Positions 7,780 through 29,179 of a stretch of 64,000 nucleotides of DNA are shown in pieces. How positions within the stretch are numbered: the stretch's first letter is position 1; each line of letters opens with the position of its first letter. Source of the DNA: Serratia sp. H1w (GTDB lineage Bacteria > Pseudomonadota > Gammaproteobacteria > Enterobacterales > Enterobacteriaceae); contig NZ_AYMQ01000094.1 in NCBI RefSeq assembly GCF_000633355.1, positions 1 to 64,000 on the forward strand, given 5' to 3'. The position numbers and the translations under genes are program-made. Below the pieces are notes generated by a model. That model had not been told where the DNA came from. It made no database searches and saw only the letters and a list, made by a program, of their open reading frames with translations.

Positions 7780-7789
7780 ACGGCGACTC

Positions 7790-8488: not shown

Positions 8489-8525
8489 AGTTCCTTTATT
8501 AATGACCCGGCTTGCCCTGATAATG

Positions 8526-8556
8526 ATTGGCACCTCAAATAGGCTTGGGTGCCAAT
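8526..8556. repeat. Perfect 9-bp inverted repeat upstream of the LuxR genes
   Basis: ATTGGCACC (8526-8534) and GGTGCCAAT (8548-8556) around a 13-base spacer, about 40 bases before the first LuxR start. The dyad spacing of about two helical turns would fit a dimeric regulator's operator. It could also be an attenuator between pilin and regulator genes. Confidence 0.5.
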
Positions 8557-9199: not shown

Positions 9200-9270
9200 G
9201 AGGTTTCCTTACTGTTCCCGTCTATATTCAGGCAGGGAATTCCTGCCTGATTTCCTTGAGTTAAAAAAAC

Positions 9271-10299: not shown

Positions 10300-10305
10300 C
10301 GTTCC

Positions 10306-12873: not shown

Positions 12874-12976
12874 CCGTTTTACTCCATTGCCTGCAGGGTG
12901 AAATCCCCCCCTGTGTCCTGTGCCCCACGGCCTGTGGGGATGCCTGCTCAATCAACGCAATACCTTGCAAGTCCTG

Positions 12977-13654
12977 CTATAACGCTGCGAGCTGCTCTTT
13001 GCTTACCGCCCCGTAATCATTGATAATCTTCCAGCTGAGCGGGCCGCCGCTCACTCCGGTTGGCAGCGCAAAGCTTGCGGTACTCATCGGAGCCACATAG
13101 GTCACATCGCTCAATTTCTTGCCTGCAACCTTCACTTCATAGAAGTTCATATAAAACGGCGTTGGGTTGGTCACCTGCAGGTTATTACCACTGCGCTGCC
13201 AGGTAAGTTTCTCTGTCACTTGCTCCGGCGTGCCTTTGATACCCTGCGGGCGGTAAATCAGCTTGATGCGCGTCTTCACTGCAATTTGCAGCGTATTGCG
13301 GACGTCACCTTTGCTGGCGGCGGGAATGGACTTGATGTTCATCCAATACAACGATTCTTTATCGGAGGACAGATTGCCCCCGGCACGCACTACGCGCAGG
13401 ACGTTTTTCTGGTCGCCATCCAGGCGGAACAGCGGCGGGGTCACCACAAAGGGGGCTTTCTCAGCGCCACCTGCGGTGGTCTCTACCCAGGTCTGGATGA
13501 GGTACGGCCCCTTGTCCGGGTTACTGACGCTCAGTGAAGACTCCTTTTTACCGCCTTCATAAATCAGACGCGTACCGCCCACAATCACGCCGGCCTGAGT
13601 TGCACAACTCATCATCAGCAAGCCCATCAGCACTGTGGCAGGAATAAATTTCAT
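12977..13654 (-). CDS. Periplasmic fimbrial chaperone
   Basis: PapD/FimC-type chaperone that caps pilin subunits by donor-strand complementation. The 225-residue protein has a signal peptide (MKFIPATVLMGLLMMSCATQA), the first Ig-like domain starting GVIVGGTRLIYEGGKKESS, the pilin-binding G1 strand region followed by KTRIKLIYRPQGI, and a second Ig domain. ATG 13654 has an AGGGG site and gives the normal signal-peptide start. It lies between the major pilin and usher genes. Confidence 0.93.
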   Translation of the reverse strand: MKFIPATVLMGLLMMSCATQAGVIVGGTRLIYEGGKKESSLSVSNPDKGPYLIQTWVETTAGGAEKAPFVVTPPLFRLDGDQKNVLRVVRAGGNLSSDKESLYWMNIKSIPAASKGDVRNTLQIAVKTRIKLIYRPQGIKGTPEQVTEKLTWQRSGNNLQVTNPTPFYMNFYEVKVAGKKLSDVTYVAPMSTASFALPTGVSGGPLSWKIINDYGAVSKEQLAAL

Positions 13655-13746
13655 ACAAACACCCCTAAAATGAGACATAAAGGCCAGCTCAACTACCGCT
13701 GGCCTGAAATCAGAACAACTAATCTCTACGTCGAATCGGTAAAGTC

Positions 13747-14280
13747 TTAGTTGTAGTTAAGGGTGAAGCTAGCGGTGGAGTTCGCAACACCAGAAGTGAT
13801 GGTGGCGGAGGTAGAGATATAACGTGCAACGAAGTCCAGATCGTTATTACCTACAACCAGTGGATATGATTTGGATGCAGTAAACAATGGAACTACAGCG
13901 TTAGCGTCATCGCTCAGCTGAATACCAACACCTGTTGCGCCACCAGCAGTCAGTGCCAGAACGGTGTTGTCACCAGACACAGCGATACCGTCAAATTTGA
14001 CTGAAGCTTGAGTTGCCGCAGCCGGGCAACCTGTCAATTTGATGGTGAAATTGGTTGCAGAAGATTTAACACCCGCAGTCGGAACGCCACCCACGTTGAA
14101 AGAAGTGGTAGCGACTTCACCCAGATTTACTTGCAGCGGGCTGCCTGGGTTGTTAGTCACAACACAAGCGTCATCGGTGATTTTACCAACGAAATCAACT
14201 TGACCATCAGCAGCCGCAGCAGCGGTAACGGCAAATACAGAAGAGGCTAATACGGCAACAGCGATCAGATTCTTTTTCAT
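13747..14280 (-). CDS. Major fimbrial subunit (FimA-like pilin)
   Basis: A 177-residue pilin with signal peptide MKKNLIAVAVLASSVFAVTA, a mature start near AAADGQVDFVGKI, two cysteines (DACVV and LTGCPA) for the domain disulfide, and the C-terminal strand ASFTLNYN. It is the first gene after the candidate invertible switch, like fimA. The start at 14280 follows an AAAGGA site; the longer ORF (14307) begins within the leader. The 152-base untranslated stretch to the inverted repeat resembles fim operons. Confidence 0.9.
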   Translation of the reverse strand: MKKNLIAVAVLASSVFAVTAAAAADGQVDFVGKITDDACVVTNNPGSPLQVNLGEVATTSFNVGGVPTAGVKSSATNFTIKLTGCPAAATQASVKFDGIAVSGDNTVLALTAGGATGVGIQLSDDANAVVPLFTASKSYPLVVGNNDLDFVARYISTSATITSGVANSTASFTLNYN

Positions 14281-14432
14281 ACAACACTTTCCTTTAATGT
14301 AATGCACTCATGTGCATAGCAAAATTATTTGACATAGCCTTATGTCGTTCCCTGTTTATTTAGTTCCTAGCGATAACCTCGCCCGTTAAATAACTGCTCG
14401 GGCCGTTAAGCCTTGTCTAACCGACGAGTCAT

Positions 14433-14779: not shown

Positions 14780-15328
14780 TTACCAAACTTCCTTAAACCT
14801 CCGCGCATTGCTGGCCGTATAAAGTACGGTGTGCTGAATATTCTTATGTCCCAGGAAATCCTGAATCAATCTTGTATCTATCCCTCGATCTGCCAGTGCA
14901 AATCCACAGCCATGCCGCAGCATATGGGGGTGAGCGTTGACCTCCAAACCAGCTAACTCACTGTAATTACGCATTAGCCAATAGATCCGCTGGCGGGATA
15001 GATGATTCCCCTTCTCGGAGAGGAATAACCAGTCGCTGTCGGCACCTCGATAATTACGTCTAACTTTCAACCAGGCGCGTAGCGCTTTATGTTCTTTGGC
15101 ATATAAAGGATGAATGGTGGAAAAGCCGTTCTTCAACCGATGGATATAAATGCTTTTGCCTTCCAGGTCGATATCGGAAAGGCGCCAACGGTTGATCTCA
15201 CTGACGCGACACCCGTGGATAAAACACATCCAAATCAAACAGTAATCGCGCTCCGGGTGCTTGCCATGCTGGGTAGCCCCTAGCAGACGCGCCACTTCGG
15301 AAGGAGTCAGATGCTTGCGATTATTCAT
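14780..15328 (-). CDS. FimE/FimB-like tyrosine recombinase (switch-proximal)
   Basis: A 182-residue site-specific recombinase of the short fimbrial class, which has only the catalytic domain. Catalytic residues are visible: Arg41 (HGCRVSE), His135-x-x-Arg138 (HMLRHGCG), His161 (LGHKN) and the nucleophile Tyr170 (VLYTASNA). It lies 33 bases from the right inverted repeat and is transcribed toward it, in the place of fimE. It probably inverts the adjacent element and so switches fimbriae on and off. GC is lower than in the backbone genes. Confidence 0.92.
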   Translation of the reverse strand: MNNRKHLTPSEVARLLGATQHGKHPERDYCLIWMCFIHGCRVSEINRWRLSDIDLEGKSIYIHRLKNGFSTIHPLYAKEHKALRAWLKVRRNYRGADSDWLFLSEKGNHLSRQRIYWLMRNYSELAGLEVNAHPHMLRHGCGFALADRGIDTRLIQDFLGHKNIQHTVLYTASNARRFKEVW

Positions 15329-15866
15329 AGTGCCTCACTGTTACTTTACAAAGAAATGTGCAGGGCTATTCATCCTTTTACATACCTACAAGATTAATGG
15401 GATCGTCGATGCAAGGGTGGTGACAGCTTCAGCCGACCCCCAGAAACAGTATAGCGGAGAGGAAAAATGACAACAGCCATGGAATGATTAAGGGTATCTG
15501 GCAGAAAAAAATCCTGACCACCAAACCCTGTCAGCAAGGGCTACACCTTGCCATTTCCAAGATAAGTCCTAATTGATTTTATTAATAAACAGCGAAATAA
15601 CCACTCAGAGTGAGTTCCAGAATCGATATTGACGATATAAGTTCCAATCTATTTTAACGTTTTTGAATAACCTTCACCCTTTTATGGAACGCCCATTTTA
15701 AATCATCTTGAATGCCTACGAGAGGTCCAATTAAAGTACCCCCCTTTATTATCACGTGACTTTATTAGTGAAAGTATAGGTAAAAAGCTAGACTCAGTCA
15801 TCATTCGATGGCACTAGTTGTCATTGACGAATTAAGGGGGGGATTACTTTCCCAACAGGCTCTGCT
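15329..15866. other. Intergenic region between the two recombinase genes
   Basis: AT-rich, 538 bases, no supported ORF. It should carry the promoter of the switch-proximal recombinase near 15330-15450. Near the other end is an imperfect inverted repeat: AAAGTACCCCCCTTTATT (15733-15750) against AATTAAGGGGGGGATTACTTT minus its last base (15830-15850). Confidence 0.55.
15733..15850. repeat. Imperfect inverted repeat downstream of the distal recombinase
   Basis: Arms at 15733-15750 and 15830-15850 match in AAAGTA, a run of at least six C/G and CTT-ATT, with a two-base gap, about 80 bases apart. It begins 16 bases beyond the stop of the distal recombinase. It may be a second recombinase site or simply a structured 3' end. 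Confidence 0.45.
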
Positions 15867-16427
15867 CTATAATGCAATCGAGCGAAAACGCCAGGCGTTG
15901 CTAGCCGTATAAATTACCGTGTTTTGAATATTTTTATGGCCCAGATAGTCCTGAATTAAACGTGTATCGATACCGGTATCCGCCAGCGCATAGCCACAAG
16001 AGTGGCGTAACATATGCGGATGCACCGGAACATTCAGATCGGCAAGTTCACCATACTCGCGGATCAGGCGATGCAGTTGCTGGCGAGAGAGCCGCCCCCC
16101 CTGGCGTGACAGAAACAGAAAGTCACTATCTGCTTCAAGATATTGCGGGCGCAGAGCTAGCCAACTGACCAACGCAGACCGCTCACGTGGCTGGATGGGA
16201 TGCTGGACGGAAAAACCGTTTTTCAGGCGATTGACATACAATTTATCGCTGATTAAATCCAAATCCTGCAACCGCAGATTACAGAGCTCCGAGACACGCA
16301 ATCCGTGAATGAAACAAACCAGTAGCATGCATTTATCGCGGATAGTGTTCTTATGTTCAGGAATGGCATCGAGTAAACGCTGTACTTCATCCATACTCAA
16401 AAACTTACGATTGGTGTTAGCCGACAT
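15867..16427 (-). CDS. FimB-like tyrosine recombinase (switch-distal)
   Basis: A 186-residue paralogue of the neighbouring recombinase, with Arg44 (HGLRVSE), HMLRHSCG, LGHKN and the tyrosine of VIYTASNAWRF. ATG 16427 has an AGGGA site; the ORF is open seven codons further. Its place farther from the switch corresponds to fimB, which in E. coli inverts in both directions whereas FimE favours ON to OFF; whether these two share that division cannot be seen from sequence. Confidence 0.91.
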   Translation of the reverse strand: MSANTNRKFLSMDEVQRLLDAIPEHKNTIRDKCMLLVCFIHGLRVSELCNLRLQDLDLISDKLYVNRLKNGFSVQHPIQPRERSALVSWLALRPQYLEADSDFLFLSRQGGRLSRQQLHRLIREYGELADLNVPVHPHMLRHSCGYALADTGIDTRLIQDYLGHKNIQNTVIYTASNAWRFRSIAL

Positions 16428-16765
16428 GCAGTATTTCCCTATACCCATTTATGTTCAGAAATTTGATTTAACGACATAAGAAAATTCTGGTCAAGCTCCT
16501 GACTAGAGGCTTATTGGGACTTTGTGGAATAACTCTAGTTTCAGTGGGCTTAGCGCCTTTATTTATTTGTAACTATTGGTAACAAAATGTGTATTAGTAT
16601 ATTTTTTGAACCAATAATTCAATCCGGGAGAATTAGTTAACCCTGCCGATTTTGAGTTGGACATCATTTTTCAGCGGTGTTCTGGTGATAAGGAGCAACC
16701 CATAGAGTTGCAATAGAGAGGGAGTTAGTGAAGGAGGGGTATGCAGAGATACCCCCGAGCTTAAC
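16428..16765. other. Intergenic region between recombinase and biosynthetic cluster
   Basis: No gene supported. It holds the upstream region of the distal recombinase and, at its low-identity right end, a hairpin that probably ends the biosynthetic operon (16736-16755). Confidence 0.6.
16736..16755 (-). terminator. Putative terminator of the peptide/fatty-acid operon
   Basis: Perfect 7-bp stem GGGGTAT / ATACCCC with a 6-base loop, 10 bases after the ketoreductase stop on the minus strand. The following minus-strand sequence is pyrimidine-rich but not a pure T-run. Confidence 0.5.
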
Positions 16766-17500
16766 TTAAACGGTTAACCCCCCGTCCAGGATCAGGCTTT
16801 GGCCCGTCATATAACGGCTGTCATCACCGATCAAAAACGCGGTGGTGCGTGCCACTTCGCTGGCCTTACCCAGGCGGCGCAGCGGGATTTGCTTGCGCAG
16901 TGCCTTCAGCGCCTCTGGCGGAATGGCCTGCGTCATTTCGCTTTCGATAATCCCCGGCAGCAGGCAGTTCACCCGGATACCAAAGCGTGCCACTTCCAGC
17001 GCCAGGGATTTTCCCATGCCGATCATCGCTGCTTTGCTGGCCCCGTAGGCCGTCTGCCCGGTGTTGCCCTTGATGCCGGTGACCGAAGACATCAGCACCA
17101 TCGCCCCTTCCCCCTGCGCCATCATCGCCGGCAGTAGATGGCGGTTCCAGTAGAAAATGGCGTTGAGGTTGGTGTCGATCACCTGCCGCCAGCGCTCACC
17201 GGTTTGCTGGATATGCAGGTCATCCAGCGTGATCCCGGCGTTATGGATCACCGCAAAAGGCGCGCCATGGCGTGCCAGCAACTGCGGAGCCACGGCATCC
17301 ACCGCCTGCTCGTCGCTGCCATCACACACGCAGCTTTCCACCCAGCCCGGTAAACCCGCGCAGGCTTTTATAACTGCCGACTCCGCCTCGGAGCCGCTAC
17401 GGCAGGTGAACACCACGTTCCACTGTTTGGCCAACTCTTCCACCAGCGCCCGGCCAATCCCCCGGCTACCGCCTGTCACTAACACCCATTGTTTTGTCAT
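16766..17500 (-). CDS. 3-oxoacyl-ACP reductase (FabG-like, SDR family)
   Basis: Short-chain dehydrogenase that reduces 3-oxoacyl-ACP to 3-hydroxyacyl-ACP with NADPH. The 244-residue protein has the cofactor loop GGSRGIGRA, HNAGIT, and the catalytic tetrad Asn111, Ser139, Tyr152 and Lys156 (YGASK), plus the C-terminal GQSLILDGG. ATG 17500 lies four bases after the ACP stop. It is not the housekeeping fabG: the neighbours are a dedicated ketosynthase, dehydratase and ACP. It closes the operon. Confidence 0.9.
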   Translation of the reverse strand: MTKQWVLVTGGSRGIGRALVEELAKQWNVVFTCRSGSEAESAVIKACAGLPGWVESCVCDGSDEQAVDAVAPQLLARHGAPFAVIHNAGITLDDLHIQQTGERWRQVIDTNLNAIFYWNRHLLPAMMAQGEGAMVLMSSVTGIKGNTGQTAYGASKAAMIGMGKSLALEVARFGIRVNCLLPGIIESEMTQAIPPEALKALRKQIPLRRLGKASEVARTTAFLIGDDSRYMTGQSLILDGGLTV

Positions 17501-17504
17501 AGGA

Positions 17505-17753
17505 TCACTGTTGCGCGTCGACCAGGCTTTGACAGAGTTCACCCAGCGTCATATTCGGCTTGTCGATGAACATTTCGGCGGTCAGCGTGGCCCCAAACTC
17601 ACGTTTGGCCAGCACCATCAGCTCCACATAGTCCAGGCTGTCCAGCTTCAACTGATGTAGCGGCATCTCTGGCGACAGATCGCTCATTTCGAGATCTTTG
17701 GCATCACAAATCATTTCAGTGACGGTGTCATAAACCTGTTGATACTTTTCCAT
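17505..17753 (-). CDS. Acyl carrier protein of the dedicated fatty-acid module
   Basis: An 82-residue acidic carrier protein. The phosphopantetheine attachment site is Ser39 in KLDSLDYVEL. Helix positions fit a type-II ACP. It carries the growing acyl chain between the adjacent ketosynthase, ketoreductase and dehydratase. No phosphopantetheinyl transferase gene is nearby, so a host enzyme would have to activate it. The start has 16 bases to the dehydratase stop. Confidence 0.9.
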   Translation of the reverse strand: MEKYQQVYDTVTEMICDAKDLEMSDLSPEMPLHQLKLDSLDYVELMVLAKREFGATLTAEMFIDKPNMTLGELCQSLVDAQQ

Positions 17754-17769
17754 GATGATATCCCTGTAG

Positions 17770-18579
17770 TTAATTGTCGGCCAATGGCCATGTTTTTAAG
17801 GTCACCGAGGTGACGAGCAACGGGTGCCGCTGCGTTCTGGCCTCGATCACCGTACGTAGCACAAACCCGTTGCTTCTATCCCCGATAATCAGCATCGGCT
17901 GGATGTGGTAATACAACCGATCTTCGGGTTCAAACAGCGCCGTGGGGGTAAACAAACGGGCGCTGAAGTGAGTTTCATGGTGCGTCTGCACCACCGGGAT
18001 CTGGGCAAACACGTCGATCAACGTGGCAGCCTGGAGTTCCGGTAGGGCGGTGGTTAGCGCCGCCAACGTTGCTGGAGACTTGACCAGCAGTTGGAACAGC
18101 AGGGCATCGAAGAAACTCCACGCCTGCGTGGCTTCCAATGCCTGCCCCGGGAAGGACTGGCAGAGCGCCATCACCTCAGCCACGGTCAGCGCATGCTGGT
18201 GATTGCAAGCCGCCAGTTCCAACGGGCGGCCCGCAGCCAGCTTGCTGTTGAAGCAGTTTTGCCGAGTAGCGCAATCCAACAACTCGCCGGTGATCTGTTT
18301 GCCGTTGCCCCCGATCTGCAAATCATACGGCGTCTGGCACAGCACCGGCCGACGCATGCGGGTACTGAATACATAAAAGTCATGTTCCGGCGGAGCTGCA
18401 AGCAGCGTCGCACTCAACTGACGTTTCATGTCCAGCATCGCCCGCATCCCATGGACGCTCAGTTGATCGGCCCCCATTTTGCGGACGTGTTGCAGATCAA
18501 AGTGGATCGGGTTGTAGTCGCCGGAGAAGGCGGCCCACTCCTCGGCATCGCGCAGGGTGTAGTTGAGGATCATACTCAT
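17770..18579 (-). CDS. MaoC-like hotdog dehydratase/hydratase
   Basis: A 269-residue protein with an N-terminal MaoC-type hotdog domain: the hydratase motif SGDYNPIHFD supplies the Asp and His pair. The C-terminal half (from about residue 180, HETHFSARLF) looks like a second hotdog fold without the catalytic pair. It would dehydrate 3-hydroxyacyl-ACP to enoyl-ACP. No enoyl reductase lies in the cluster, so the chain may stay unsaturated or 3-hydroxylated. It overlaps the ketosynthase gene by ATGA, showing translational coupling. Confidence 0.8.
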   Translation of the reverse strand: MSMILNYTLRDAEEWAAFSGDYNPIHFDLQHVRKMGADQLSVHGMRAMLDMKRQLSATLLAAPPEHDFYVFSTRMRRPVLCQTPYDLQIGGNGKQITGELLDCATRQNCFNSKLAAGRPLELAACNHQHALTVAEVMALCQSFPGQALEATQAWSFFDALLFQLLVKSPATLAALTTALPELQAATLIDVFAQIPVVQTHHETHFSARLFTPTALFEPEDRLYYHIQPMLIIGDRSNGFVLRTVIEARTQRHPLLVTSVTLKTWPLADN

Positions 18580-19826
18580 GCCTGCCCAATAACCAGCGCC
18601 GCATTGGCACCGCCAAAGCCGAAGCTCAGATTCAGGATGTTCTGCAATTTAGCCGGGCGGTGCCCTTCACTGATGTAGTCCAGGTCGCACTCCGGATCGG
18701 CATTTTTCAGGTTACAGGTGGCTGGCATCAGCTGATGCTGCAACGCCTGCAGGCAGATAATGGATTCAAAACTGCCCGCCGCCGCAATCAGGTGTCCAGA
18801 GTAAGACTTGGTGCTGGAAAGCGGCGTGCGGCAGGCCGCCTCGCCAAAGGCCAGCTTGATCGCCTGGGTCTCATTCAGATCGTTGAGCGGCGTGGACGTG
18901 CCATGGGCATTGATATAATCGATATCTTCCGCCGTCACCCCAGCCTGGTCCAGCGCGTGCTGGATGGTTTTCACCCTGGCAATCTTGTCTTCTGCTGGCG
19001 CGGTAAAATCAAAGGCATCGGAGTAGTTACCGTAGCCCTTGATCTCGCCAAAGATCGTTGCCCCACGCGCCAGTGCGGCTTCGCGCTCTTCAAGACACAG
19101 CACGGCAGCCCCTTCGGACAGCACGAAACCGTTGCGATCGAGGCTGAAGGGGCAGCAGGCCTTGCTGGCGTCGTCCTGTTCACTTGCCAGGGCGCGCAGA
19201 ATATCGATGTTCCACACGGCGGCATCGGTACGCAACGACTCACCGGCCCCGGCCAGCATCATCGACGCACGGCCGCTGCGGATCACCTCGGCCGCATCAC
19301 CAATGGCGATCGTTCCGGTGGCGCAGGCGGCAATCGGGCTATTTTGATAACCACGCAGGCCCCAGAACAGGCTGCACGCTGCCGTAGCCGCATTCGGCAT
19401 GGACAGGAAGCAGCCAAACGGTGAGCCCAACCCCGTACGGAGATAGCCTTCATAGTTAAGGTGGGTTTCATCCTGACCCGCCCAGCCGCTGCCGATGATG
19501 GTGCCGCAGTCCAACAGATCGTAATACGCCGCCGGGCTCTCCCCGTGGAAGGCCATCTCCATCGCTTCGCGGGCCGCCCCCAGCGCAAGACGGGCAAAAC
19601 GAGGCAGACGACGGCGGATCGCCGCCGGTACCCCCTTCAGGCTGGGTTCTTCGTCGATCACGCCGAAGAAACGTGACTGGATCCCCTTGGCAGACATATC
19701 GACATGGCGATAGCCCAGTTGATAATCCATGATCGCTGCCCAGCTTTGCTCGGCATTCATCCCTAATGGTGTGACCGCACCGAAACCTGTAACCACCACG
19801 CGACGTGGCAAAGCATCTTTATTCAT
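18576..19826 (-). CDS. Beta-ketoacyl-ACP synthase (FabF-like)
   Basis: A 416-residue condensing enzyme with the Cys-His-His triad of KAS I/II: Cys168 in AACATGT, His308 in NAHGTSTPLND and His345 in KSYSGHL. It extends an acyl-ACP by malonyl-ACP condensation. The KSYSGH motif departs from the usual KSMTGH, and a glycine follows ACAT where FabF has serine, so this is a specialised branch rather than the primary fabF. It starts four bases after the outer-membrane factor gene. Confidence 0.9.
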   Translation of the reverse strand: MNKDALPRRVVVTGFGAVTPLGMNAEQSWAAIMDYQLGYRHVDMSAKGIQSRFFGVIDEEPSLKGVPAAIRRRLPRFARLALGAAREAMEMAFHGESPAAYYDLLDCGTIIGSGWAGQDETHLNYEGYLRTGLGSPFGCFLSMPNAATAACSLFWGLRGYQNSPIAACATGTIAIGDAAEVIRSGRASMMLAGAGESLRTDAAVWNIDILRALASEQDDASKACCPFSLDRNGFVLSEGAAVLCLEEREAALARGATIFGEIKGYGNYSDAFDFTAPAEDKIARVKTIQHALDQAGVTAEDIDYINAHGTSTPLNDLNETQAIKLAFGEAACRTPLSSTKSYSGHLIAAAGSFESIICLQALQHQLMPATCNLKNADPECDLDYISEGHRPAKLQNILNLSFGFGGANAALVIGQA

Positions 19827-19830
19827 GATT

Positions 19831-21225
19831 TCATCCTGTTATATCACCGTTTTTTTCCACACCGCCGCCCAGCGCCAGCCACAGTTTCATGGTGGCATTG
19901 AGGTAGTTGTACTGTAGATCTGACAAATTGGTTTCGATGGTCAGCAGATCGTCCTCGGCATCCAGCAGGCTCTGGAAAGAGACTGCCCCTACCTGGTACT
20001 GGCTTCTAACCAATACCAAACGCTGCTGGCTAAGTTGCAGATTCTGTTGCTGATTGATCTTTTGCTGCTGATAACTGAGGCGTTGCGACATGGCGTTATC
20101 CACGTCGGAGAGCGCGCTATAAACCTTGCTACGGAAAGTGATCGCCGCCTGTTTGACGTCCAGACCCGACTTCTCGATGGTTAACTGCACCGTATTCCAC
20201 TGCACAAATGGCAGCGCAGCGGTGGCTCCCAGCGTCCTGACAGGATTGCTGAACCATTGAGAGAAAATGTTGCTGGCGGAGCCGAGTGAGGCAGCCAGTG
20301 ACAGCGAAGGATAGAAGCTTAAACGTTCCACATCCGAACCGGCCAGGGTAGCTCGCAAACGCCCTTCCGCCGCCTTCACGTCTGGACGACGGGCAATAAC
20401 CTCTACCGGCAGCACCTTGGCAATCGGCACATCCTGATTGATATCCAGCGAGCTGCGTTCCGCCTGACGATCGGTGGGCGAACGGTTGAACAGGATCGCC
20501 AGCGCATTACGGTTCTCTTCCCGTTGCTGTTGCAGCGTACGGTAGGTGTTCTCTCGATTAAGCAGCGACTGCTGTGCCTGTAACAAATCGAGCTGCCCTG
20601 CCGCGCCGGAAGCATAACGGGATTGCACCAGCGCCAGCGTCTGCTGACTAATTTCCAGGCCCGCTTGCTGCTGTTTTATCTTCTGGTTGAGGTTGGCGAT
20701 CTGCCAGTAATACTGCGCCGTGCTGCCAATGAGCGTTAGCGCGGTGTTTTGCCGATCCTGCTCCGTGGCTTCAACCTGCCACTGCGCTTGCTCTCTGGCT
20801 CGAGCCAATTTGCCCCATAGGTCCAGCTCATAGCTCAGCGACAACGTCGTGCTGTAAGACTCCGTCGGAGTGGTATTGCTGCGCAGGTTTTTTCTGTTGT
20901 TGGCGCTCCCCCCAACCGACACTTCCGGCGTTAAATTGGTATCGGTCAACCCAGCCGCCAATCGGGCCTGCTGGAGTTGTATGCCCGCGATCGCCAGATC
21001 GTTGTTGCTGGTCAGTGCGCGTCCGATCAGCATCGAGAGCTGTGGATCGTCAAAGTTATCCCACCAGTGGTCGGTGTGTTGCAGATAACCTGAACCGGTA
21101 TCCTGCACCCGCCACTCAGTAGGCACCGACAACATTGGCCGCTGATATTCGCTTTTCGTCAAAGAGCCACAACCGCTCAGCAGCAAGGGCAACAAGATAG
21201 CCAGAGAGAATTTGTTCATCATCAT
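19831..21225 (-). CDS. TolC/NodT-family outer-membrane efflux lipoprotein
   Basis: A 464-residue outer-membrane channel. The lipobox LLLSGCGS around residue 18 predicts a lipid-anchored mature N-terminus, as in OprM/NodT members. Two tandem repeats of long alpha-helical stretches (QQARLAAGLTD..., QQQKINQQQNLQLSQQRLVL) fit the periplasmic tunnel. With the MacA/MacB-like proteins it would form a tripartite trans-envelope pump. Its ATG overlaps the macB-like stop. Confidence 0.92.
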   Translation of the reverse strand: MMMNKFSLAILLPLLLSGCGSLTKSEYQRPMLSVPTEWRVQDTGSGYLQHTDHWWDNFDDPQLSMLIGRALTSNNDLAIAGIQLQQARLAAGLTDTNLTPEVSVGGSANNRKNLRSNTTPTESYSTTLSLSYELDLWGKLARAREQAQWQVEATEQDRQNTALTLIGSTAQYYWQIANLNQKIKQQQAGLEISQQTLALVQSRYASGAAGQLDLLQAQQSLLNRENTYRTLQQQREENRNALAILFNRSPTDRQAERSSLDINQDVPIAKVLPVEVIARRPDVKAAEGRLRATLAGSDVERLSFYPSLSLAASLGSASNIFSQWFSNPVRTLGATAALPFVQWNTVQLTIEKSGLDVKQAAITFRSKVYSALSDVDNAMSQRLSYQQQKINQQQNLQLSQQRLVLVRSQYQVGAVSFQSLLDAEDDLLTIETNLSDLQYNYLNATMKLWLALGGGVEKNGDITG

Positions 21226-23177
21226 TCGCGCGCCAGCGCCTCCGTGGGATGAAGACGTGCCGCATTGCGCGCCGGGAAGAAGCCAAAACCCAGGCCAATC
21301 AGTGCCGAGAACCCGCTGGCAAGGACCAACGGCGGCCAGGTAAAGATCATCGAGAACTCTTGCGTCACCAGAGAGAAAATCACCCCGGCCAACCCGGAGC
21401 CAATAATGCCAATCATCCCGCCCAGCGAGCAGATCACCATCGCCTCAATCAGGAACTGGCGCATAATGTCCGCTGGCCGTGCGCCGACCGATAGACGAAT
21501 GCCAATCTCATGAGTACGTTCGGTAACGGAAACCAGCATGATGTTCATGACGCCTACCCCCCCCACCAGCAGCGAAATTCCGGCAATCGCGGTGATCAAA
21601 AGATTCATGGAATCCGATGCCTTGCGGATGGCCTGCGTCATCTGGTCATTGGTCTGGGTGTAAAAGTCGCGCTGGCCATGAGCCTGTTCTAACAGCTTCT
21701 CCACGCGCCCTTGTACTTCATGCGGTGCAAGCCCGTCACGCACACGCAAGGTCATGGACTCGATCGGCATATCGCCGGACATGCGCTCCAGCAACGCGGT
21801 ATAGGGCATCCAGGCACCCAACATCATGCCGCTGAATTTGCCGCCTTTACGCTCGGCAATGCCGATCACCCGGTAAGGCGTGCCGCCGAGCTGGATGATT
21901 TCCCCCTCTGGTGTTTCATCCGTTTCAAACAGCGTATCGCGTAATTCCGGGTCAATGATCACCACCGGCTCACGCTCGTCCAGATCGCGCTGGGTAAAAC
22001 CGTTACCGGAGAGGAAATGCAGGCCCTGCACGCGGAAATAGGCATTACTGATGCCGGAAATCGCCACCGTGACCTCTTTGCCACCGCGCACTGCGGTCAC
22101 CGCTGTGCTGACCACTGGCGATACACTGTCGACATAAGGCTGGCGAGCCAACAGTTCTACATCGGAAACCTTCAATGCGCGCGCAAAGTCAGGCCGCACT
22201 TTCCCTCTTCCTTCACCGGGGCGGACCTCCAACGTACTGCTGCCCAGTTGGCCGATCTCACTAAGAATATTTTGCCGTGCGCCCTCACCCACCGCCATCG
22301 ACGACACCACGGAGGAGACGCCGATAATGATGCCCAACATCGACAGAAAGGCTCTGGCCCGATGCCCCATCAGCGCACGCCAGGCCATCTTGATCGCCTC
22401 TTGCACGCTCTGCCAGAACGAGTTACGCCCGGTAGCAGCAACCACCGGCAATACCGGACGGGTTTCCAATGGCGCGACCGCTTCATTGCGCCGATCGGCA
22501 ATAATTTCACCGTCGCTGATTTCAATAATGCGCTGCGCCTGATTGGCAACATCCCGATCGTGGGTGACGATAATGATGGTGTGCCCAGAACGATGCAGGG
22601 AGTGCAGGATTTCCATCAGCTCCTGCCCGCTGGCACGATCGAGCGCACCGGTCGGTTCATCGGCCAGAATGATTTCCGCCCCGTTCATCAACGCACGAGC
22701 AATACTCACCCGCTGCTGCTGCCCACCGGAGAGCTGTGCCGGTTTGTAGCCCATCCGCTGTTGCAGCCCAAGCCGGGTGAGCAGGTATTCAGCCCGCGTC
22801 TGACGTTCCGCCGCAGGCATCGCGGTATACAGGGCCGGGATGGCGACGTTTTCGCTGGCACTCAGGTACGGCATCAGGTGATAGCGCTGGAAGATAAACC
22901 CGATGTATTGGCTGCGTAGCTGGGCCAACTGCTCACTGCTGGCGAGTTGGGTGGAGATACCCTTGATCTGCATCTCACCCTCGGTGGGCTTATCCAGGCA
23001 ACCGATGATATTCATCAGCGTGGATTTACCCGAGCCGGACGCACCCACGATCGCCACCATCTCGCCAGGCTGGATGGAAAGGGAGACATTTTTCAGCACC
23101 GCCACCGTCTGCAGCCCGGAGACAAAATGGCGTGAGATCCCGCTCAGTGAGATCAGTGCAGGGGTTGGCTTAACCAT
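21222..23177 (-). CDS. MacB-like ABC transporter (ATPase plus FtsX-type permease)
   Basis: A 651-residue fusion of an ATPase (Walker A GASGSGKST, signature LSGGQQQRVSIARAL, Walker B ILADEPTGALD) and a four-helix permease with a large periplasmic domain, the MacB layout. MacB proteins are mechanotransmitters that push substrates from the periplasm through TolC. ATG 23177 has a GGGGAG site eight bases upstream and overlaps the macA-like gene by eight bases; a GTG three codons earlier is less likely. It may export the mature peptide or give self-protection. Confidence 0.92.
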   Translation of the reverse strand: MVKPTPALISLSGISRHFVSGLQTVAVLKNVSLSIQPGEMVAIVGASGSGKSTLMNIIGCLDKPTEGEMQIKGISTQLASSEQLAQLRSQYIGFIFQRYHLMPYLSASENVAIPALYTAMPAAERQTRAEYLLTRLGLQQRMGYKPAQLSGGQQQRVSIARALMNGAEIILADEPTGALDRASGQELMEILHSLHRSGHTIIIVTHDRDVANQAQRIIEISDGEIIADRRNEAVAPLETRPVLPVVAATGRNSFWQSVQEAIKMAWRALMGHRARAFLSMLGIIIGVSSVVSSMAVGEGARQNILSEIGQLGSSTLEVRPGEGRGKVRPDFARALKVSDVELLARQPYVDSVSPVVSTAVTAVRGGKEVTVAISGISNAYFRVQGLHFLSGNGFTQRDLDEREPVVIIDPELRDTLFETDETPEGEIIQLGGTPYRVIGIAERKGGKFSGMMLGAWMPYTALLERMSGDMPIESMTLRVRDGLAPHEVQGRVEKLLEQAHGQRDFYTQTNDQMTQAIRKASDSMNLLITAIAGISLLVGGVGVMNIMLVSVTERTHEIGIRLSVGARPADIMRQFLIEAMVICSLGGMIGIIGSGLAGVIFSLVTQEFSMIFTWPPLVLASGFSALIGLGFGFFPARNAARLHPTEALARE

Positions 23178-24330
23178 TGCCAGCACTCCCCGCCAACACC
23201 ACGCGGTCGCCCTCTTTCAGCCCTTCTTTCACTTCGGCAAACTGGCGGTCGTTCAGGCCAATGCGCACCCAGCGTGATTCAAGCTGTTTACCGTTCATCA
23301 CCTGCACCTGATAACGATCTTTGCCCTGCTGGGCACCAAAGGCAGCCACCGGTACACGTAAAGCGTTCTTTGCCTGTTCGGTAATGATAAATACCTGCGC
23401 GGTCATCGAGGTGCGCAGCAGACGTTTCCCGTTGGCAATGGCAAACACGCCGCTGTAATACACCGCCGAGGCTTGCTGATTAGAGGAACTGGACGGGTTA
23501 TCTTCCTGCAAAGCGTCACTGGGTGCTTCCTGGATCGAGCCCATCACGCTTTCGTAACGCTGTTTCGGATCGGCCACCACGTAGAACCACAGCGGTTGCC
23601 CCACGCGCACCTTCAGGATATCGGTCTCTGAAATACGGGTGTGTACCGTCATGGTATCCACATCCGCCAGCACCAGAATGGTCGGGACGGTTTGTGACGA
23701 CACGATGGTCTGCCCTTCTTTGGTCACAATGCCCAACACTTCGCCGTCGATCGGCGCAACGATGCGGGTAAAACCCAGATTGGCCTTGGCGGTTTCCAGC
23801 TCCATCTGCGCCTGAACGATCTGCGCGTCGTTGACCTTCAACTGGGCCACCTGGGTTTGGAACTGCGCCTGCGCCTTTTCCAGATCGCTTTTAACGCCTG
23901 AACCATCACGATCCAGCTTCAGCTGACGCTTCAGCTCCTGTTGATACTGTTTGAGCGTCGCCTGGGTGACTTGTTTTTGCGCTTCGGCACTTTGCAGGGC
24001 AGCTTCCGATTTACGCAGTGCATTCTGTTGCAGTGTGGGATCGATTTCCGCCAGCAACTGCCCACGGGTAACGCGATCGCCCTGTTTCACATACAGCTTT
24101 TGTAATTGCCCGTTAACCTGAGCACCCACGCTGACCTGCAACGCGGGTTTGAGAATGCCGGTAGCCAACACGGTTTTTTCGATATCGCCACGGGTGATCT
24201 CTTCGGTGTCATAGGTATTTTCCTGAGTGGGCGCAGTGACGTACCAGACGAGCGCACCCATCGCCAGCAAACATAGCAAGGCTATCGGCACCAGCCAGCG
24301 TTTGGTTATGCCAACCATTTTCAGTTTCAT
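23170..24330 (-). CDS. MacA-like periplasmic adaptor protein
   Basis: A 386-residue membrane-fusion protein: one N-terminal transmembrane segment (WLVPIALLCLLAMGALVWYV), a lipoyl/barrel-sandwich half (VSVGAQVNGQLQKLYVKQGD), a long coiled hairpin at residues about 100-180, the second lipoyl half (GFTRIVAPIDGEVLG), then beta-barrel and membrane-proximal domains. It joins the MacB-like transporter to the outer-membrane channel. Start and the exporter stop overlap as TGATG. Confidence 0.92.
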   Translation of the reverse strand: MKLKMVGITKRWLVPIALLCLLAMGALVWYVTAPTQENTYDTEEITRGDIEKTVLATGILKPALQVSVGAQVNGQLQKLYVKQGDRVTRGQLLAEIDPTLQQNALRKSEAALQSAEAQKQVTQATLKQYQQELKRQLKLDRDGSGVKSDLEKAQAQFQTQVAQLKVNDAQIVQAQMELETAKANLGFTRIVAPIDGEVLGIVTKEGQTIVSSQTVPTILVLADVDTMTVHTRISETDILKVRVGQPLWFYVVADPKQRYESVMGSIQEAPSDALQEDNPSSSSNQQASAVYYSGVFAIANGKRLLRTSMTAQVFIITEQAKNALRVPVAAFGAQQGKDRYQVQVMNGKQLESRWVRIGLNDRQFAEVKEGLKEGDRVVLAGSAGNG

Positions 24331-26465
24331 CAGCACACCGCCGTGGTCAGTACCGGTGGGGTTTCAACGCTGGCCACATGGCCGTTGCTCACGCGGAATA
24401 CCCGGTCGAACATCGGTAATACGCTCTCGCTGTGGGTGACGGTGATCAGCGTTTTATGCCGTTCGCGACAATGTTCCAGCAAGGTGGTCATCACCTGGTG
24501 CGCCGTTTCCTCATCCAGGTTGGCCGTGGGTTCATCCAGCACCAGCACCGGGCGATCGCTGTACATGGCCCGCGCCAGCAACAGACGTTGACGTTGCCCC
24601 AGAGACAACCCGGCGTGGCTTTCACGGATCAGGGCGTTCAGGCCCCCCGGCAGCTTCTCGATCACCGGGGTGAGATTAAGCCCCTCCAGCGAGCGCTCAA
24701 TCTGTTGATGCTTTTGCTCATTAAAGTTCTCATCAAACAGCGTGATGTTGTGCAGCACCGAGGCATTGAACAAGATGTCCTCCTGGCTTTGCAGGAAGAA
24801 CAACGCGTGCACCTGCTGATAATCGAGCGGCTGGCCATCCACTATGATGTCCCCTTGCTGTGGCGGCATCAGGCCGGTCATCACCTTCAACAGGGTACTT
24901 TTGCCCGCGCCAGACTCACCGACAATCGCAATGCTTTGCCCCGGCTTGAACGACAGGGAAAGATCGTGCAACACCGGCTGCTGGGCGTCATAGGCAAAGG
25001 CGATATGGTTATAACGCAGCTGCGAGGTAAAGGCCGGGATCGGCGCTGGCACCGCTGCGTTGCCCAGCTCCGGTGCAGAGCGTGGGGGGAACAGATCCCG
25101 GGCGCGGGTGTCAATCACGTTCAACTGATTCTTTTGCAGGATCGAATAGAAGATTTTGGTGATGTAGGAGGTAAAAATTTCCCGCACAAAGCTATAGGCA
25201 AAGAACTCCCCCAGCGTGATGGTTTCGTTTTTCAACAACGGCAGCGCCAGGAACATAAACAGCACCATTTCCAGGCTGCCGATCAGTTGATACAGGCTGC
25301 TTTTGACCTGTTCGTACATCCGCTGTTGCTGGCGGCAGGTAAACAGCGCCAGGGCGTACTTGGCAAACAGGCTCTTGCGCTGGCTATCGAGCCCGGCTGA
25401 CTTGATGGTGGCGAAACCTTGAATACTCTCCAGGATAAAGTCGCTCTGATCGGCCGTTTTGACCTGCATCTGCTGGGTGTAATAACGGTCACGATAGATG
25501 GCCCAGACGCTGACCAGCCCCATCAGGGCCACGCTGATACCAGACACCATCGCCAGCAGCGGGCTCATGTAACACATCACGGCCAAGGCAATGGCACCAA
25601 TGATCCAATCAGTACGCAGGCCGTTATCCAACTCGATTTTTATGCCCGAGGCCATCTGCCAGCTGGCAAAGCGGCTAAATACATCGCCAGGTGCGCGTTT
25701 ATCAAAGAAGTTCAGTGAGTTACTGAGCAAGCGCGAGAAGCCCGCCACGCTATTGTTCACCACAAAGCGTTTGATAAACCGCTCGGTGATCCAACGCACA
25801 CCGAAGGCCAGCGTGGTCGAAACGACAAACGCCAGCAGGAAGTAAAAATAGGGGAAATCTGTTTGTCCCGCAGAGGAAAAGACCTGGTTGATGGCACTGC
25901 TGACCATCGTCGGCATGATAAACAGGGTCAACGAGATCAGAAACGCCAGTATCATCAAACGGTAAATGCCGGGGATACGTGCCGTTTCTTTCAGGCTCAT
26001 GGTGTCGAACATGCGAAAACGTTTACTGCGCTGTACGTTGGCCAGCGCCTGCGGATCGGGCTGGGTTTCACTGTCCAGCACCAGCGCATAGCCGCTGATA
26101 TCCAACTTTAATGCATCGATAGGCAGCAGTTGCTGGCCAATGCCCGGGTTCATCACGCAAACATGGTTGCCCTTGCGGTAGGCCAGCACCACATAATGAC
26201 TCGCCCCGTAATGCAAAATGGCGGGCAGCGGTATTTCCGCCAGTTCATCATGTTCAAAGGCCACGGGATAAGCAGGCATCGCCAGTTCTGCCATGATATC
26301 GCACAACCTCACCAGCGAGGTGCCATGTTGCGAGGCCGGATAGCGTTCACGCAGGCTTTCCAACGAGACATCGATCCCCTGCGTTTCCGCCATCATGGCG
26401 ATACAGGCCAGCCCACATTCATTCGTTTCGCCTTGAAACACCAGCGTCGGGATTATCTTTTCCAT
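24330..26465 (-). CDS. Peptidase-containing ABC transporter (C39 bacteriocin exporter)
   Basis: A 711-residue transporter of the kind that cuts double-glycine leaders and exports the peptide. Residues 1-130 are a C39 protease: Gln11 and Cys17 (FQGETNECGLAC) and His90 (GASHYVVL) are present, but the third catalytic position is Asn106 (MNPG), where the family usually has Asp. Residues about 165-440 are the transmembrane domain. The ATPase follows (GESGAGKST, LSLGQRQRLLLARA, VLDEPTANLD). The likely substrate is the GG-leader peptide at 28378-28566. Confidence 0.93.
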   Translation of the reverse strand: MEKIIPTLVFQGETNECGLACIAMMAETQGIDVSLESLRERYPASQHGTSLVRLCDIMAELAMPAYPVAFEHDELAEIPLPAILHYGASHYVVLAYRKGNHVCVMNPGIGQQLLPIDALKLDISGYALVLDSETQPDPQALANVQRSKRFRMFDTMSLKETARIPGIYRLMILAFLISLTLFIMPTMVSSAINQVFSSAGQTDFPYFYFLLAFVVSTTLAFGVRWITERFIKRFVVNNSVAGFSRLLSNSLNFFDKRAPGDVFSRFASWQMASGIKIELDNGLRTDWIIGAIALAVMCYMSPLLAMVSGISVALMGLVSVWAIYRDRYYTQQMQVKTADQSDFILESIQGFATIKSAGLDSQRKSLFAKYALALFTCRQQQRMYEQVKSSLYQLIGSLEMVLFMFLALPLLKNETITLGEFFAYSFVREIFTSYITKIFYSILQKNQLNVIDTRARDLFPPRSAPELGNAAVPAPIPAFTSQLRYNHIAFAYDAQQPVLHDLSLSFKPGQSIAIVGESGAGKSTLLKVMTGLMPPQQGDIIVDGQPLDYQQVHALFFLQSQEDILFNASVLHNITLFDENFNEQKHQQIERSLEGLNLTPVIEKLPGGLNALIRESHAGLSLGQRQRLLLARAMYSDRPVLVLDEPTANLDEETAHQVMTTLLEHCRERHKTLITVTHSESVLPMFDRVFRVSNGHVASVETPPVLTTAVC

Positions 26466-26489: not shown

Positions 26490-27437
26490 TTATTCATTGA
26501 TAAAAAATAACGAATGTGCGTGCCATAACAGCCAGTCCTCGGGATGCCGGACGATCGAACTCTCAACAATTTCTGGCAATTTGGCTTTCACGCTGCGCGC
26601 CGGGATCGGCGGATCAATATGGATTTTTATCTCTTTGTCGTAATACAGGTAATAAAACACCACCTGCGCCGACAGCGCCCGGGCAATGCGGATCAAGCCG
26701 CTGTGCAAATTGGCCGGGCGATCAAACAGGCGGCAACTGAGCTTTGCCGTTTGCGCCGTATTGGTATTGACGGTGTAATCCGGCGAGATATCCGGGAAAA
26801 TCATGATATTGCGTTGATGATCGGCCGCTTCCATAATCGCCCCCATCAGATTGCCGGCAATTTCCCGGTTATCATCATGGATCGAGCAGTAGGACAGGTT
26901 AACGCCCCCTAACTCCCGCGCCTTGGCGTGATACACCTCAACGCTAACGGAAACTATCGCCGTCGCCTGCCCCGGAAACACCCCGGCACCCACCATGCCG
27001 GCCAGCACGTCAGAGAGCATATGCAGCGGTGCCAGCACCACGGGGTGCCCTGCCTGATGCAAAGGTTCGACAACCGCATTAAGCTCAGCCTGGCAGCGAG
27101 CCAACTGGGCTGCGACCTGAGGGCTCTGGCCGTAGGTTGCGGCCAGCTCCAGTAAACGGCGGCGCTGACTGGTGCGGGCAAAATTCCCTTGGTAGTCAGC
27201 CCCGAGCAGAGATTGCTTGTTGGCCTCGGCCACAAAGGCACGCCGACGATCGCCCCGGTTACCTAATCGCAGCCAGCGGCCCAGCGCCGCCAGCCCAAGG
27301 AACCAACGGTAGCTGCCATGGCGCAGCAGCCAACAAACCGTCTTGCCGTATGCTCTGCGCAAGGGCAACAAACTGCGAGCAATGCCTGTGAGCGCCTCTC
27401 TCCACGCCAGATATATCCACACGGCAAATAAACGCAT
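26490..27437 (-). CDS. LpxL/HtrB-like acyltransferase
   Basis: A 315-residue protein with a hydrophobic N-terminal segment and the general build of lipid A lauroyl/myristoyl transferases, which move an acyl chain from ACP to an acceptor at the inner membrane. The expected HX4(D/E) motif is not exact: the best site is His139-Met-Leu-Ser-Asp143, with only three residues between. In this cluster the natural donor would be the dedicated ACP and the acceptor possibly the peptide. Its start overlaps the DsbA-like stop as TAATG. Family call moderate, substrate unknown. Confidence 0.7.
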   Translation of the reverse strand: MRLFAVWIYLAWREALTGIARSLLPLRRAYGKTVCWLLRHGSYRWFLGLAALGRWLRLGNRGDRRRAFVAEANKQSLLGADYQGNFARTSQRRRLLELAATYGQSPQVAAQLARCQAELNAVVEPLHQAGHPVVLAPLHMLSDVLAGMVGAGVFPGQATAIVSVSVEVYHAKARELGGVNLSYCSIHDDNREIAGNLMGAIMEAADHQRNIMIFPDISPDYTVNTNTAQTAKLSCRLFDRPANLHSGLIRIARALSAQVVFYYLYYDKEIKIHIDPPIPARSVKAKLPEIVESSIVRHPEDWLLWHAHSLFFINE

Positions 27438-28111
27438 TATTTCTCCAGCGGTTTGTCATGCTGCAACAGTGACAACAGATGATCGGCAAACTCAGGGAAT
27501 TCGCGATCCTGCAGGGCCAGCCACTTTTTGTTGACGATAAACGTTGGGGTCGCCTTGATTTTGTAATACCCAGACACTTTGGTCATATAGTTCAGCAACT
27601 CTGCCACCTGCGGTGTCTGGCTGGCTTTGTTATAAGCCTCAATATCGATACCGTTTTTCGTTAACCATTGATCGCGGATGCCTGGGTTAGTCAGATCGAT
27701 TCTTTGTTTAATGATGGCGTCATAAGCGCTTGCACGGTGCTGTGATTCAATGCCCATCACCGTCAGGGTGGCAAACAACGGGGCGAAGCTCGCCAAACCA
27801 TCATTGTTCAGGTTGGCAATGTGCAAGCGAACGAATTGAGTCCCGGCCGGCATCCGGGCTTCCATCTTGGAGACATCCTCGTCATTCAAGGCACAATAGT
27901 GGCAACCGTAAGAGAAGATCTCAATAATCGTATTATCCGTATTTATCGGACTGATTTTAATATCGTCCTCGCCGAGCATAGTCAGAGCCTGTTGCTCAGG
28001 AGCAGAATTCTGATTCAGTATAAAATAGTGGAAATAAGCCGTGGTGATCAGCGAAGAGATAATAATAACCAAAAGGGTATAGGCGAAAAGATAAAAGGGC
28101 TTCTTGAACAT
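27437..28111 (-). CDS. DsbA-like thiol oxidoreductase, membrane-anchored
   Basis: A 224-residue thioredoxin-fold protein with an N-terminal membrane anchor (residues about 8-30) and the redox motif Cys70-His-Tyr-Cys73. KATPTFIVN supplies the cis-proline loop. The C-x-x-C with His in the second place suggests an oxidase of DsbA type working in the periplasm. It follows directly after the cysteine-rich peptide gene, so formation of that peptide's disulfides is the plain inference. A rather low-GC gene. Confidence 0.88.
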   Translation of the reverse strand: MFKKPFYLFAYTLLVIIISSLITTAYFHYFILNQNSAPEQQALTMLGEDDIKISPINTDNTIIEIFSYGCHYCALNDEDVSKMEARMPAGTQFVRLHIANLNNDGLASFAPLFATLTVMGIESQHRASAYDAIIKQRIDLTNPGIRDQWLTKNGIDIEAYNKASQTPQVAELLNYMTKVSGYYKIKATPTFIVNKKWLALQDREFPEFADHLLSLLQHDKPLEK

Positions 28112-28307: not shown

Positions 28308-28336
28308 GCTGATGCGATAAACCCTACCGCATCAGC
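28308..28336 (-). terminator. Hairpin between peptide gene and downstream operon
   Basis: Perfect 9-bp stem GCTGATGCG / CGCATCAGC with an 11-base loop, about 40 bases after the peptide stop. On the minus strand a moderately T-rich stretch follows. It probably acts as a partial terminator, letting the peptide message exceed that of the export genes, as is common for small-peptide operons. Confidence 0.55.
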
Positions 28337-28377: not shown

Positions 28378-28566
28378 TTATGGCTGCGCAGGGCAGCTGC
28401 TCAGCGCAACTGGTTTGCTGTCAACGCTAACAACCTTGCCATCTTTGTCTACACAAGTGGTAACAGCATTACAAGTGGTTGGAGTCAGGTTTACATACTC
28501 AACGCTACAGGTTTTGCAAGTGCCGCCAACGATTGTGCTAGCTTCAGAAACGTTTAATTTTTTCAC
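28378..28566 (-). CDS. Double-glycine leader peptide, cysteine-rich (DUF4762-like)
   Basis: A 62-residue precursor starting at GTG 28566, seven bases after AAGGA. Residues 1-15 (MKKLNVSEASTIVGG) form a classical double-glycine leader. The 47-residue core has five cysteines (Cys17, 20, 32, 38, 58) and many Thr, Val and Ser. The leader resembles the small enterobacterial family I know as DUF4762, which has no experimentally known role that I can name. The adjacent C39 exporter and DsbA-like protein suggest a secreted, disulfide-bonded peptide such as a bacteriocin or signal. No immunity gene was recognised. Confidence 0.8.
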   Translation of the reverse strand: MKKLNVSEASTIVGGTCKTCSVEYVNLTPTTCNAVTTCVDKDGKVVSVDSKPVALSSCPAQP

Positions 28567-29179
28567 AACATCATCCTTATATAAAAGTGAAATTTAATAG
28601 CCCTAGTTATTTCCATCATAAATAATAGAAAAAATCTATGCTCAATATAAAGGCACGATAACTCATGCCTTTATTAAAGCATGATATTAGAATAGTTAAT
28701 TATTCCCTCTACTGCAGTGATGACAACGATAGCGCTATATTTAATGCATTTCAATAATAATTTTAGCATCAAATATCACGAAAACATTATATTACAGAAC
28801 ATCCGATCAAGGATATTTCTTACATACAGGTAGGTTAATACTCTAAAAATAACAATAATAGCCTGAATATACCGCATGAGAGACCCAAAGGCTAATGCAG
28901 GATCATTCTTATTACCTAAGAATAATCATCCACTAAAAATCAGAAGGTTTTAGCGAAAAATCAGACGTTTCGCAGCCTCACCGGCGGTTCAAAGGGAAGA
29001 GGTGAGACTTGCAAAGGCAGCGTCGTCACTCGGTTGTGAAGCACTACGCATTCTTTTTCAACGCTGAGTAACGCGGACACATTGTGATGGAACAACTACG
29101 CATAATTCTTATCCTCTTCTCGCCACCGGATTTTGAGCATTTTAACGTTGCCTCCTGATCACTACGGAGGAAACAACAG
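28567..29179. other. Intergenic region between peptide gene and ppdD
   Basis: AT-rich, 613 bases, no supported ORF. It must contain the divergent promoters of the peptide operon (minus strand) and ppdD (plus strand). A 9-bp inverted repeat lies at 28647-28674. The region marks the right edge of the inserted block. Confidence 0.6.
28647..28674. promoter_or_regulatory. Inverted repeat upstream of the peptide gene
   Basis: ATAAAGGCA (28647-28655) and TGCCTTTAT (28666-28674) form a perfect 9-bp dyad with a 10-base spacer, about 80-110 bases before the peptide start. A possible operator for the operon; no regulator gene is known to match it. Confidence 0.4.

Follow-up and report, generated by a model that had tools for sequence, protein, structure and literature searches.

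The peptide gene and the run that follows it

The stretch of Serratia sp. H1w DNA analysed here (contig NZ_AYMQ01000094.1, positions 1 to 64,000; the whole 64,000 nucleotides are hereafter called the window) carries at 28378-28566 the gene for a small double-glycine peptide of the Pfam family DUF4762, and this gene is the first of eleven, of which the other ten run on the same strand down to 16766. This ten-gene operon had not been reported in the first-pass annotation, whose open reading frame (ORF), leader, core and cysteines were borne out. The coding strand is the minus strand, the plus-strand reading of 28378-28566 being interrupted by a stop. The ORF begins with GTG, with AAGGA upstream at 28578-28574, and encodes a 15-residue leader ending in GG (residues 14-15) and a 47-residue core containing Cys17, 20, 32, 38 and 58. 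In the Pfam scan, PF15959 (DUF4762) matched with 37 bits against a cut-off of 27 (E 3.1e-9). The alignment of homologues proposed with the earlier annotation showed that the GG site and the cysteines, and also the start, are kept, GG at 14-15 being invariant in the 51-row precursor alignment. Codons are also conserved between relatives (dN/dS 0.04 to 0.44 in eight of 10 homologous pairs, dS being saturated in the other two), so that the lack of codon conservation named beforehand as counting against the peptide was not seen. The eleven genes are as follows.

28378..28566, minus strand: precursor peptide (DUF4762), 62 residues, leader 28522-28566 and core 28381-28521; PF15959 and homologues
27437..28111, minus strand: DsbA-like thiol oxidoreductase with N-terminal hydrophobic anchor and CHYC motif; PF01323 37 bits, cut-off 25.6
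26490..27437, minus strand: LpxL-like (predicted LPLAT-fold) acyltransferase (AT) with H139-x-x-S-D143; Lip_A_acyltrans below cut-off, structure model, Foldseek
24330..26465, minus strand: C39 peptidase-ABC exporter, predicted to cleave the leader and export; PF03412 80.2 bits, PF00005 103.2 bits
23170..24336, minus strand: MacA-type periplasmic adaptor; PF16576, PF13437; best NCBIfam model MacA, 305 bits, below cut-off 342
21222..23186, minus strand: MacB-type ABC permease; PF12704, PF02687; best NCBIfam model MacB, 733 bits, below cut-off 966
19831..21225, minus strand: outer-membrane channel of TolC/NodT type with lipoprotein-like N-terminus; PF02321 159.4 bits, TIGR01845 258 bits, cut-off 210
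18576..19826, minus strand: FabF-like ketoacyl synthase (KS); PF00109, PF02801, ACATG Cys motif
17770..18579, minus strand: MaoC-like (hotdog) dehydratase (DH) with SGDYNPIH motif; PF01575 22.3 bits, cut-off 27
17505..17753, minus strand: acyl carrier protein (ACP) with DSL motif; PF00550 38 bits, cut-off 20.8
16766..17542, minus strand: FabG-like ketoreductase (KR), whose true start may be further in; PF13561 180.9 bits

A lone peptide without machinery is ruled out by the ten co-directional genes downstream. The claim of a secreted double-glycine peptide is supported by the C39 peptidase-ABC exporter, which lies in the same gene run after two intervening genes, and no immunity gene is evident, as had been stated before; between the precursor and KR all larger ORFs were assigned. 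Judged from their sequences, KS, DH, ACP and KR constitute a mini fatty-acid synthase, and a plasmid homologue of the DH is annotated "hotdog family protein" by NCBI. No enoyl reductase, thioesterase or coenzyme A (CoA) ligase was found among the eleven cluster products. The cluster thus assembled probably converts the precursor into a ribosomally made, fatty-acylated and disulfide-bonded lipopeptide.

The structure model of the AT (pLDDT 81.4) gave Foldseek matches to PatA (2.5e-10), LpxM (7.9e-9) and GPAT, and all 16 matches with E <=0.001 belonged to these three, indicating an LPLAT fold for the modelled protein. The motif HxxSD is present in the AT of 74 of the 75 distinct clusters described below, and some plasmid homologues are named LpxL/LpxP family by NCBI. 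Since LPLAT-fold enzymes of known function, the matched PatA, LpxM and GPAT, act on glycolipids and phospholipids, the synthase and the AT might instead make a free or membrane-bound lipid, the peptide being an ordinary unmodified class II microcin-like product exported by its neighbours; disulfide-bonded double-glycine peptides such as class IIa microcins are not known to need acylation. This alternative is considered quite improbable: the run contains no further gene for lipid transfer (glycosyl- or phosphotransferase), and two further observations given below, on the co-occurrence of AT and precursor and on a cluster that has lost its synthase, speak against it.

Distribution and gene order

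A search with PF15959 of 198 genomes of the bacterial family found 21 genomes with a match at E <=0.01, 20 of them over the cut-off, and none among 14 control genomes; the match in genome G064 lay below the cut-off and had an internal stop. The cluster is carried by each of the 20 genomes whose DUF4762 match is over the cut-off; KR was not detected in locus L037, and many frame breaks are present in L055. The AT was found in 20 of these 20, the converse test that weighs against production of a lipid independent of the peptide. Eight stand-alone DUF4762 precursors were found at five loci (L060, at 24-227 and 333-539; L047; L050; L056; L058) with no acyl genes nearby; their genomes hold the cluster elsewhere, from which they are possibly served in trans.

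A contig profile scan with the AT alignment identified 54 loci from named organisms, with Serratia, Yersinia, Klebsiella, Providencia, Hafnia, Rahnella, Pantoea, Enterobacter and Citrobacter among the hosts. Matches to precursor, Dsb, AT, C39, MacA, MacB, channel, KS and ACP were obtained for 54/54 loci, and to DH and KR for 49/54. The AT is present in all seven genomes of the genus (G932 carries three clusters) and in 9/394 genomes of the order sample; in the class sample beyond the order only 1/369, the own genome, was positive. Among 72,556 plasmid records, 14 matched (10 Escherichia, two Salmonella, one Chimaeribacter and one Serratia), and the clusters of five of these and of one more E. 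coli record were inspected. The plasmid AT gene was detected in 9/5426 E. coli genomes, always plasmid-borne, and some clusters are on conjugative plasmids; a blastn search of the E. coli genomes with the AT gene of the window gave nothing useful.

Deduplication by AT left a total of 75 distinct clusters including that of the window, presence of the AT in all 75 being the search criterion. All ten downstream genes occur in the order given above in 64 of the 75, and the order of whatever genes are present is kept in 74, the exception being the rearranged pE41 (L144). A precursor recognised by the profile is present in 69/75 clusters, giving 69 distinct cores among 72 peptides; each of the 71 profile-recognised precursors beside a Dsb gene (71/71) shares its strand at a distance of -46 to 534 bases. 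The genes, their order and their conservation are observed directly. Split or frame-broken genes were noted in L143, L115, L055, L145 and L125, indicating that the trait is being lost in places.

Active-site motifs are also widely kept: KS ACATG in 74/74, ACP DS-x-D in 73/73, Dsb C-[HG]-[YFW]-C in 66/71, the DH motif in 65/69 and the KR motif in 63/67, most exceptions reflecting a variant spelling or a broken gene. In the C39 triad, where the third residue is usually a catalytic Asp, Asn takes that place in 68 of the 69 readable domains and Asp in one (L126); the C39 domain of the window keeps the catalytic Cys motif.

The conserved core, natural variants and flanks

The residues kept throughout the cores, likewise a direct observation, point to a candidate site of acylation.

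28438..28449, minus strand: codons of D40-K41-D42-G43, the D-K-x-G motif, with Lys41 as the proposed acylation site; conservation and model turn

K-x-G is present in 69/69 distinct cores and D-K-x-G in 68/69, and the alignment contains no invariant Ser or Thr column. The four-cysteine pattern is present in 67/69 (L100 is without the last Cys and L125 has two cysteines), the total count of core cysteines being four in 33, five in 30, six in five and two in one. A Cys at core position 1 or 2, corresponding to the extra Cys17, occurs in 35/69. In the model of the precursor (pLDDT 66.5), strands are predicted at 19-26, 32-39 and 45-53; the turn that joins strands 2 and 3 holds D-K-x-G, and disulfides Cys20-Cys38 and Cys32-Cys58 are proposed from the strand register of this model. 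Comparison of the precursor sequence profile with solved structures gave no useful match.

The odd number of cysteines had led to the suggestion that a free Cys could be acylated or could dimerise. Acylation in kind agrees with the LpxL-like acyltransferase, ACP and fatty-acid-synthase genes in the same run, but the cysteine argument does not hold: S-acylation or dimerisation via Cys17 was rejected as a general mechanism because Cys17 is absent in 34 of the 69 distinct cores, all of whose clusters have the AT. The invariant Lys of D-K-x-G appears, from the alignment, to be a better candidate.

LpxL-type enzymes make esters, and acylation on Ser or Thr, on the new N-terminus or on Cys17 (S-acyl) was considered in place of Lys41. 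For Cys17, its counterpart in about half of the cores may be cited, set against the 34 cores that do without; for Ser or Thr, the alignment offers no invariant column of the kind seen in K-x-G. For the N-terminus, lipolanthines and goadvionins are acylated there (PMC13060382, excerpted text). The active side of LPLAT enzymes is the cytoplasmic one, and a free N-terminus would come too late for them because the leader is cut during export. Another site than Lys41 is on balance unlikely.

Clusters lacking genes also bear on the proposed pathway. In L125, which has no Dsb gene, the precursor retains D-K-x-G as well as Cys32 and Cys58; the alignment columns in which it has lost its cysteines are exactly those of Cys20 and Cys38, residues that lie opposite one another in the predicted sheet. 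L144 (S. marcescens pE41) likewise has no Dsb gene and a precursor with two cysteines and D-K-D-G. L126, from another family, retains only AT, C39, MacA and MacB, without Dsb, channel and all four synthase genes; its candidate precursor has a double-glycine leader, no cysteine and no D-K-x-G. That AT, C39 transporter and MacAB stay with a double-glycine peptide although the synthase is gone is the second observation against a free lipid as the product. Five clusters of one S. marcescens-group clade (L078, L084, L088, L091 and L092) have KS and ACP and no DH or KR, for which housekeeping enzymes may fill in.

On the E. coli plasmid p0A3_5, the precursor is encoded on the opposite strand, some 4 kb beyond KR and next to the gene for an AraC-type regulator, and D-K-H-G and the cysteines are kept. 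D-K-x-G is thus present also in the pE41 and p0A3_5 precursors, which were missed in their own loci or only weakly matched by the profile. Because the plasmid family scan at E <=10 also gave matches, never over the cut-off, in 9/14 control genomes, the weak hit in E. coli was counted as a precursor solely on the strength of its leader, its cysteines and DKHG.

A number of observations weigh against an acylated, disulfide-bonded product. Acylation and its site are inferred from genes and residues, and so are the pairing of the disulfides, export in two steps and the use of the product. The AT scored 16.6 bits with Pfam Lip_A_acyltrans, below the cut-off of 22.3, and its sequence profile found no relative among solved structures; the catalytic motif of LpxL is HX4D/E, and the HxxSD of the AT is one residue shorter. 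The DH match is also below its Pfam cut-off. The synthase is not always needed: DH and KR are missing from the five S. marcescens-group clusters, and all four of its genes from L126. On the side of the peptide, the confidence of the precursor model is low, the D-K-x-G turn could be conserved for folding alone, and the precursor profile was built from 31 precursors, many from the same loci. The L126 candidate was identified by leader and place alone, having neither D-K-x-G nor cysteine. No precursor was found in the decayed L145, the fourth Dsb-less cluster, nor in plasmid clusters L142 and L143; a GG pattern scan was uninformative, its backward control giving more hits than the pattern in W01, W02, W04 and W05 and slightly more in W03, and five stretches read afterwards contained no precursor. 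Finally, separate losses of Dsb are unproven by the AT tree, which leaves out L115 and L145: a single origin is compatible with 61% of the bootstrap trees, and the branches of L126 and L144 are very long.

The cores of DUF4762 peptides appear to carry variable loops on a fixed scaffold, which fits competition between bacteria, though not decisively. The most likely use of the product is antibacterial action in such competition. A surface-active or surface-bound factor of the dispersin type, or a signal, is a less probable but still serious alternative. In its favour are the lack of an evident immunity gene, a core without clear cationic character (four Lys and four Asp/Glu, counted by eye) and the example of the Aat system, by which CexE is acylated and then presented at the cell surface (PMC7943197, excerpted text); the variable loops, the several copies per genome and the conjugative plasmids fit competition better, again not decisively.

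Two elements were recognised in the flanks of the precursor gene.

28647..28674, no strand assigned: palindrome ATAAAGGCA-n10-TGCCTTTAT, candidate operator upstream of the precursor; conservation in the genus
28308..28336, minus strand: terminator-like hairpin between the precursor and the dsb gene; 13-pair stem followed by a T-rich tail

The palindrome is a single site in its own genome and, with at most one substitution, is found in 8/9 clusters of the genus and in 0/71 other upstream regions examined. The hairpin scan found one against a mean of 1.0 in shuffles, weak evidence by itself; L140 has the stem too. An AraC-type regulator gene stands alongside E. coli plasmid clusters L142, L157 and L156, adjoining the precursor in L157 and L156. 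In the window, two fim-type tyrosine recombinases and a fimbrial operon (14780-16448 and 8672-14307) adjoin the cluster, a recombinase and a pilin gene likewise following it in four S. marcescens-group loci, and 6398-8533 encodes three neighbouring proteins that, read by eye, resemble response regulators and carry a C-terminal helix-turn-helix.

Proposed pathway and comparison with known systems

LpxL-type enzymes take acyl-ACP as donor. In the proposed pathway, KS, KR, DH and ACP would build an acyl-ACP, from which the LpxL-like AT at the inner membrane would move the acyl chain onto the precursor, most likely onto the invariant Lys41 in the hairpin turn. The C39 transporter would then cut the leader after GG and carry the core into the periplasm, where the anchored DsbA-like protein may form the two disulfides, and MacA-MacB with the dedicated channel would carry the product out of the cell and might in addition protect the producer. 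For such export there is a described precedent, the STII enterotoxin, which is oxidised in the periplasm and then exported by MacAB-TolC (PMC8277102, excerpted text).

The broader proposal is a new lipopeptide class of Enterobacterales, in which a disulfide-stapled double-glycine peptide would be acylated on a hairpin-tip Lys by an LPLAT-fold AT that receives its acyl chain directly from the cluster's own ACP and type II synthase, in a modular pathway where Dsb tracks the cysteines, the synthase is dispensable, and AT, C39 exporter and MacAB are the core; the arguments for and against this full description are about equal in weight, and whether the cluster deserves a class of its own is just as evenly balanced. 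If true, a secreted lipopeptide family would be encoded by many enterobacteria, among them Serratia, environmental Yersinia, the Klebsiella oxytoca group, Providencia, Hafnia and, on plasmids, some E. coli, with an acyltransferase fold new to peptide lipidation, a route from ACP to peptide that dispenses with CoA ligase and thioesterase, and a dedicated natural substrate for MacAB-type pumps. DUF4762, a Pfam family of undefined function, gains a testable role. The peptide had been called probably new: the family itself was already in Pfam, but no paper containing the term "DUF4762" and, judged by titles and the openings of abstracts, no report of the cluster were found in the open-access literature searched, subscription papers and most preprints lying outside the search.

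Class II microcins of the MccV type have a double-glycine leader, a C39 peptidase-ABC exporter and cysteine pairs, belong to Enterobacterales, and are in some cases plasmid-borne. The cluster has all these in common with them, including the C39 exporter (PF03412 80.2 bits), and adds the fatty-acid synthase, acyltransferase and DsbA-like protein, with ten enzyme and export genes altogether. Class II microcins use only an HlyD/CvaA-type adaptor with the general TolC, whereas the cluster has a MacA-type adaptor, MacB and its own channel; they also have an immunity gene beside the precursor, whereas here none is evident and self-protection by MacAB is possible. HlyC acylates RTX toxins on internal lysines, in an acyl-ACP-dependent manner, before export by a C39-family ABC exporter, an order of events similar to that of the proposed pathway. 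The AT, however, has no HlyC match in Pfam, the C39 domain of the cluster has an intact motif around its catalytic Cys, and what it would export is a small peptide.

Lipoavitides reportedly use a dedicated non-modular fatty-acid synthase, to go by the title of a cited paper. Together with lipolanthines, goadvionins, selidamides and nostolysamides they are lipidated ribosomally synthesized and post-translationally modified peptides (PMC13060382, excerpted text), similar to the proposed product in joining a ribosomal peptide to a fatty acyl group, acylation here being predicted from the genes. Those described in that text employ GNAT-type acyltransferases on lanthipeptides (PMC13060382), whereas the cluster has an LPLAT-type AT and a disulfide scaffold; Pfam scans of all eleven products detected no lanthipeptide synthetase or GNAT acyltransferase domain. 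STII resembles the proposed product as a small disulfide peptide with periplasmic oxidation and expulsion by MacAB-TolC, but it enters by Sec and is not described as acylated in the excerpted text (PMC8277102), whereas the cluster has a C39 exporter and acyl genes. The Aat system with CexE/dispersin is similar in that acylation is coupled to export via an ABC permease, an adaptor and a TolC-like channel (PMC7943197, excerpted text). None of the eleven products matched PF00795 (Lnt-type, C-N hydrolase). The N-acyltransferase AatD is of the Lnt type, and its substrate arrives via Sec (PMC7943197), whereas the cluster combines an LPLAT-type AT with a C39 exporter.
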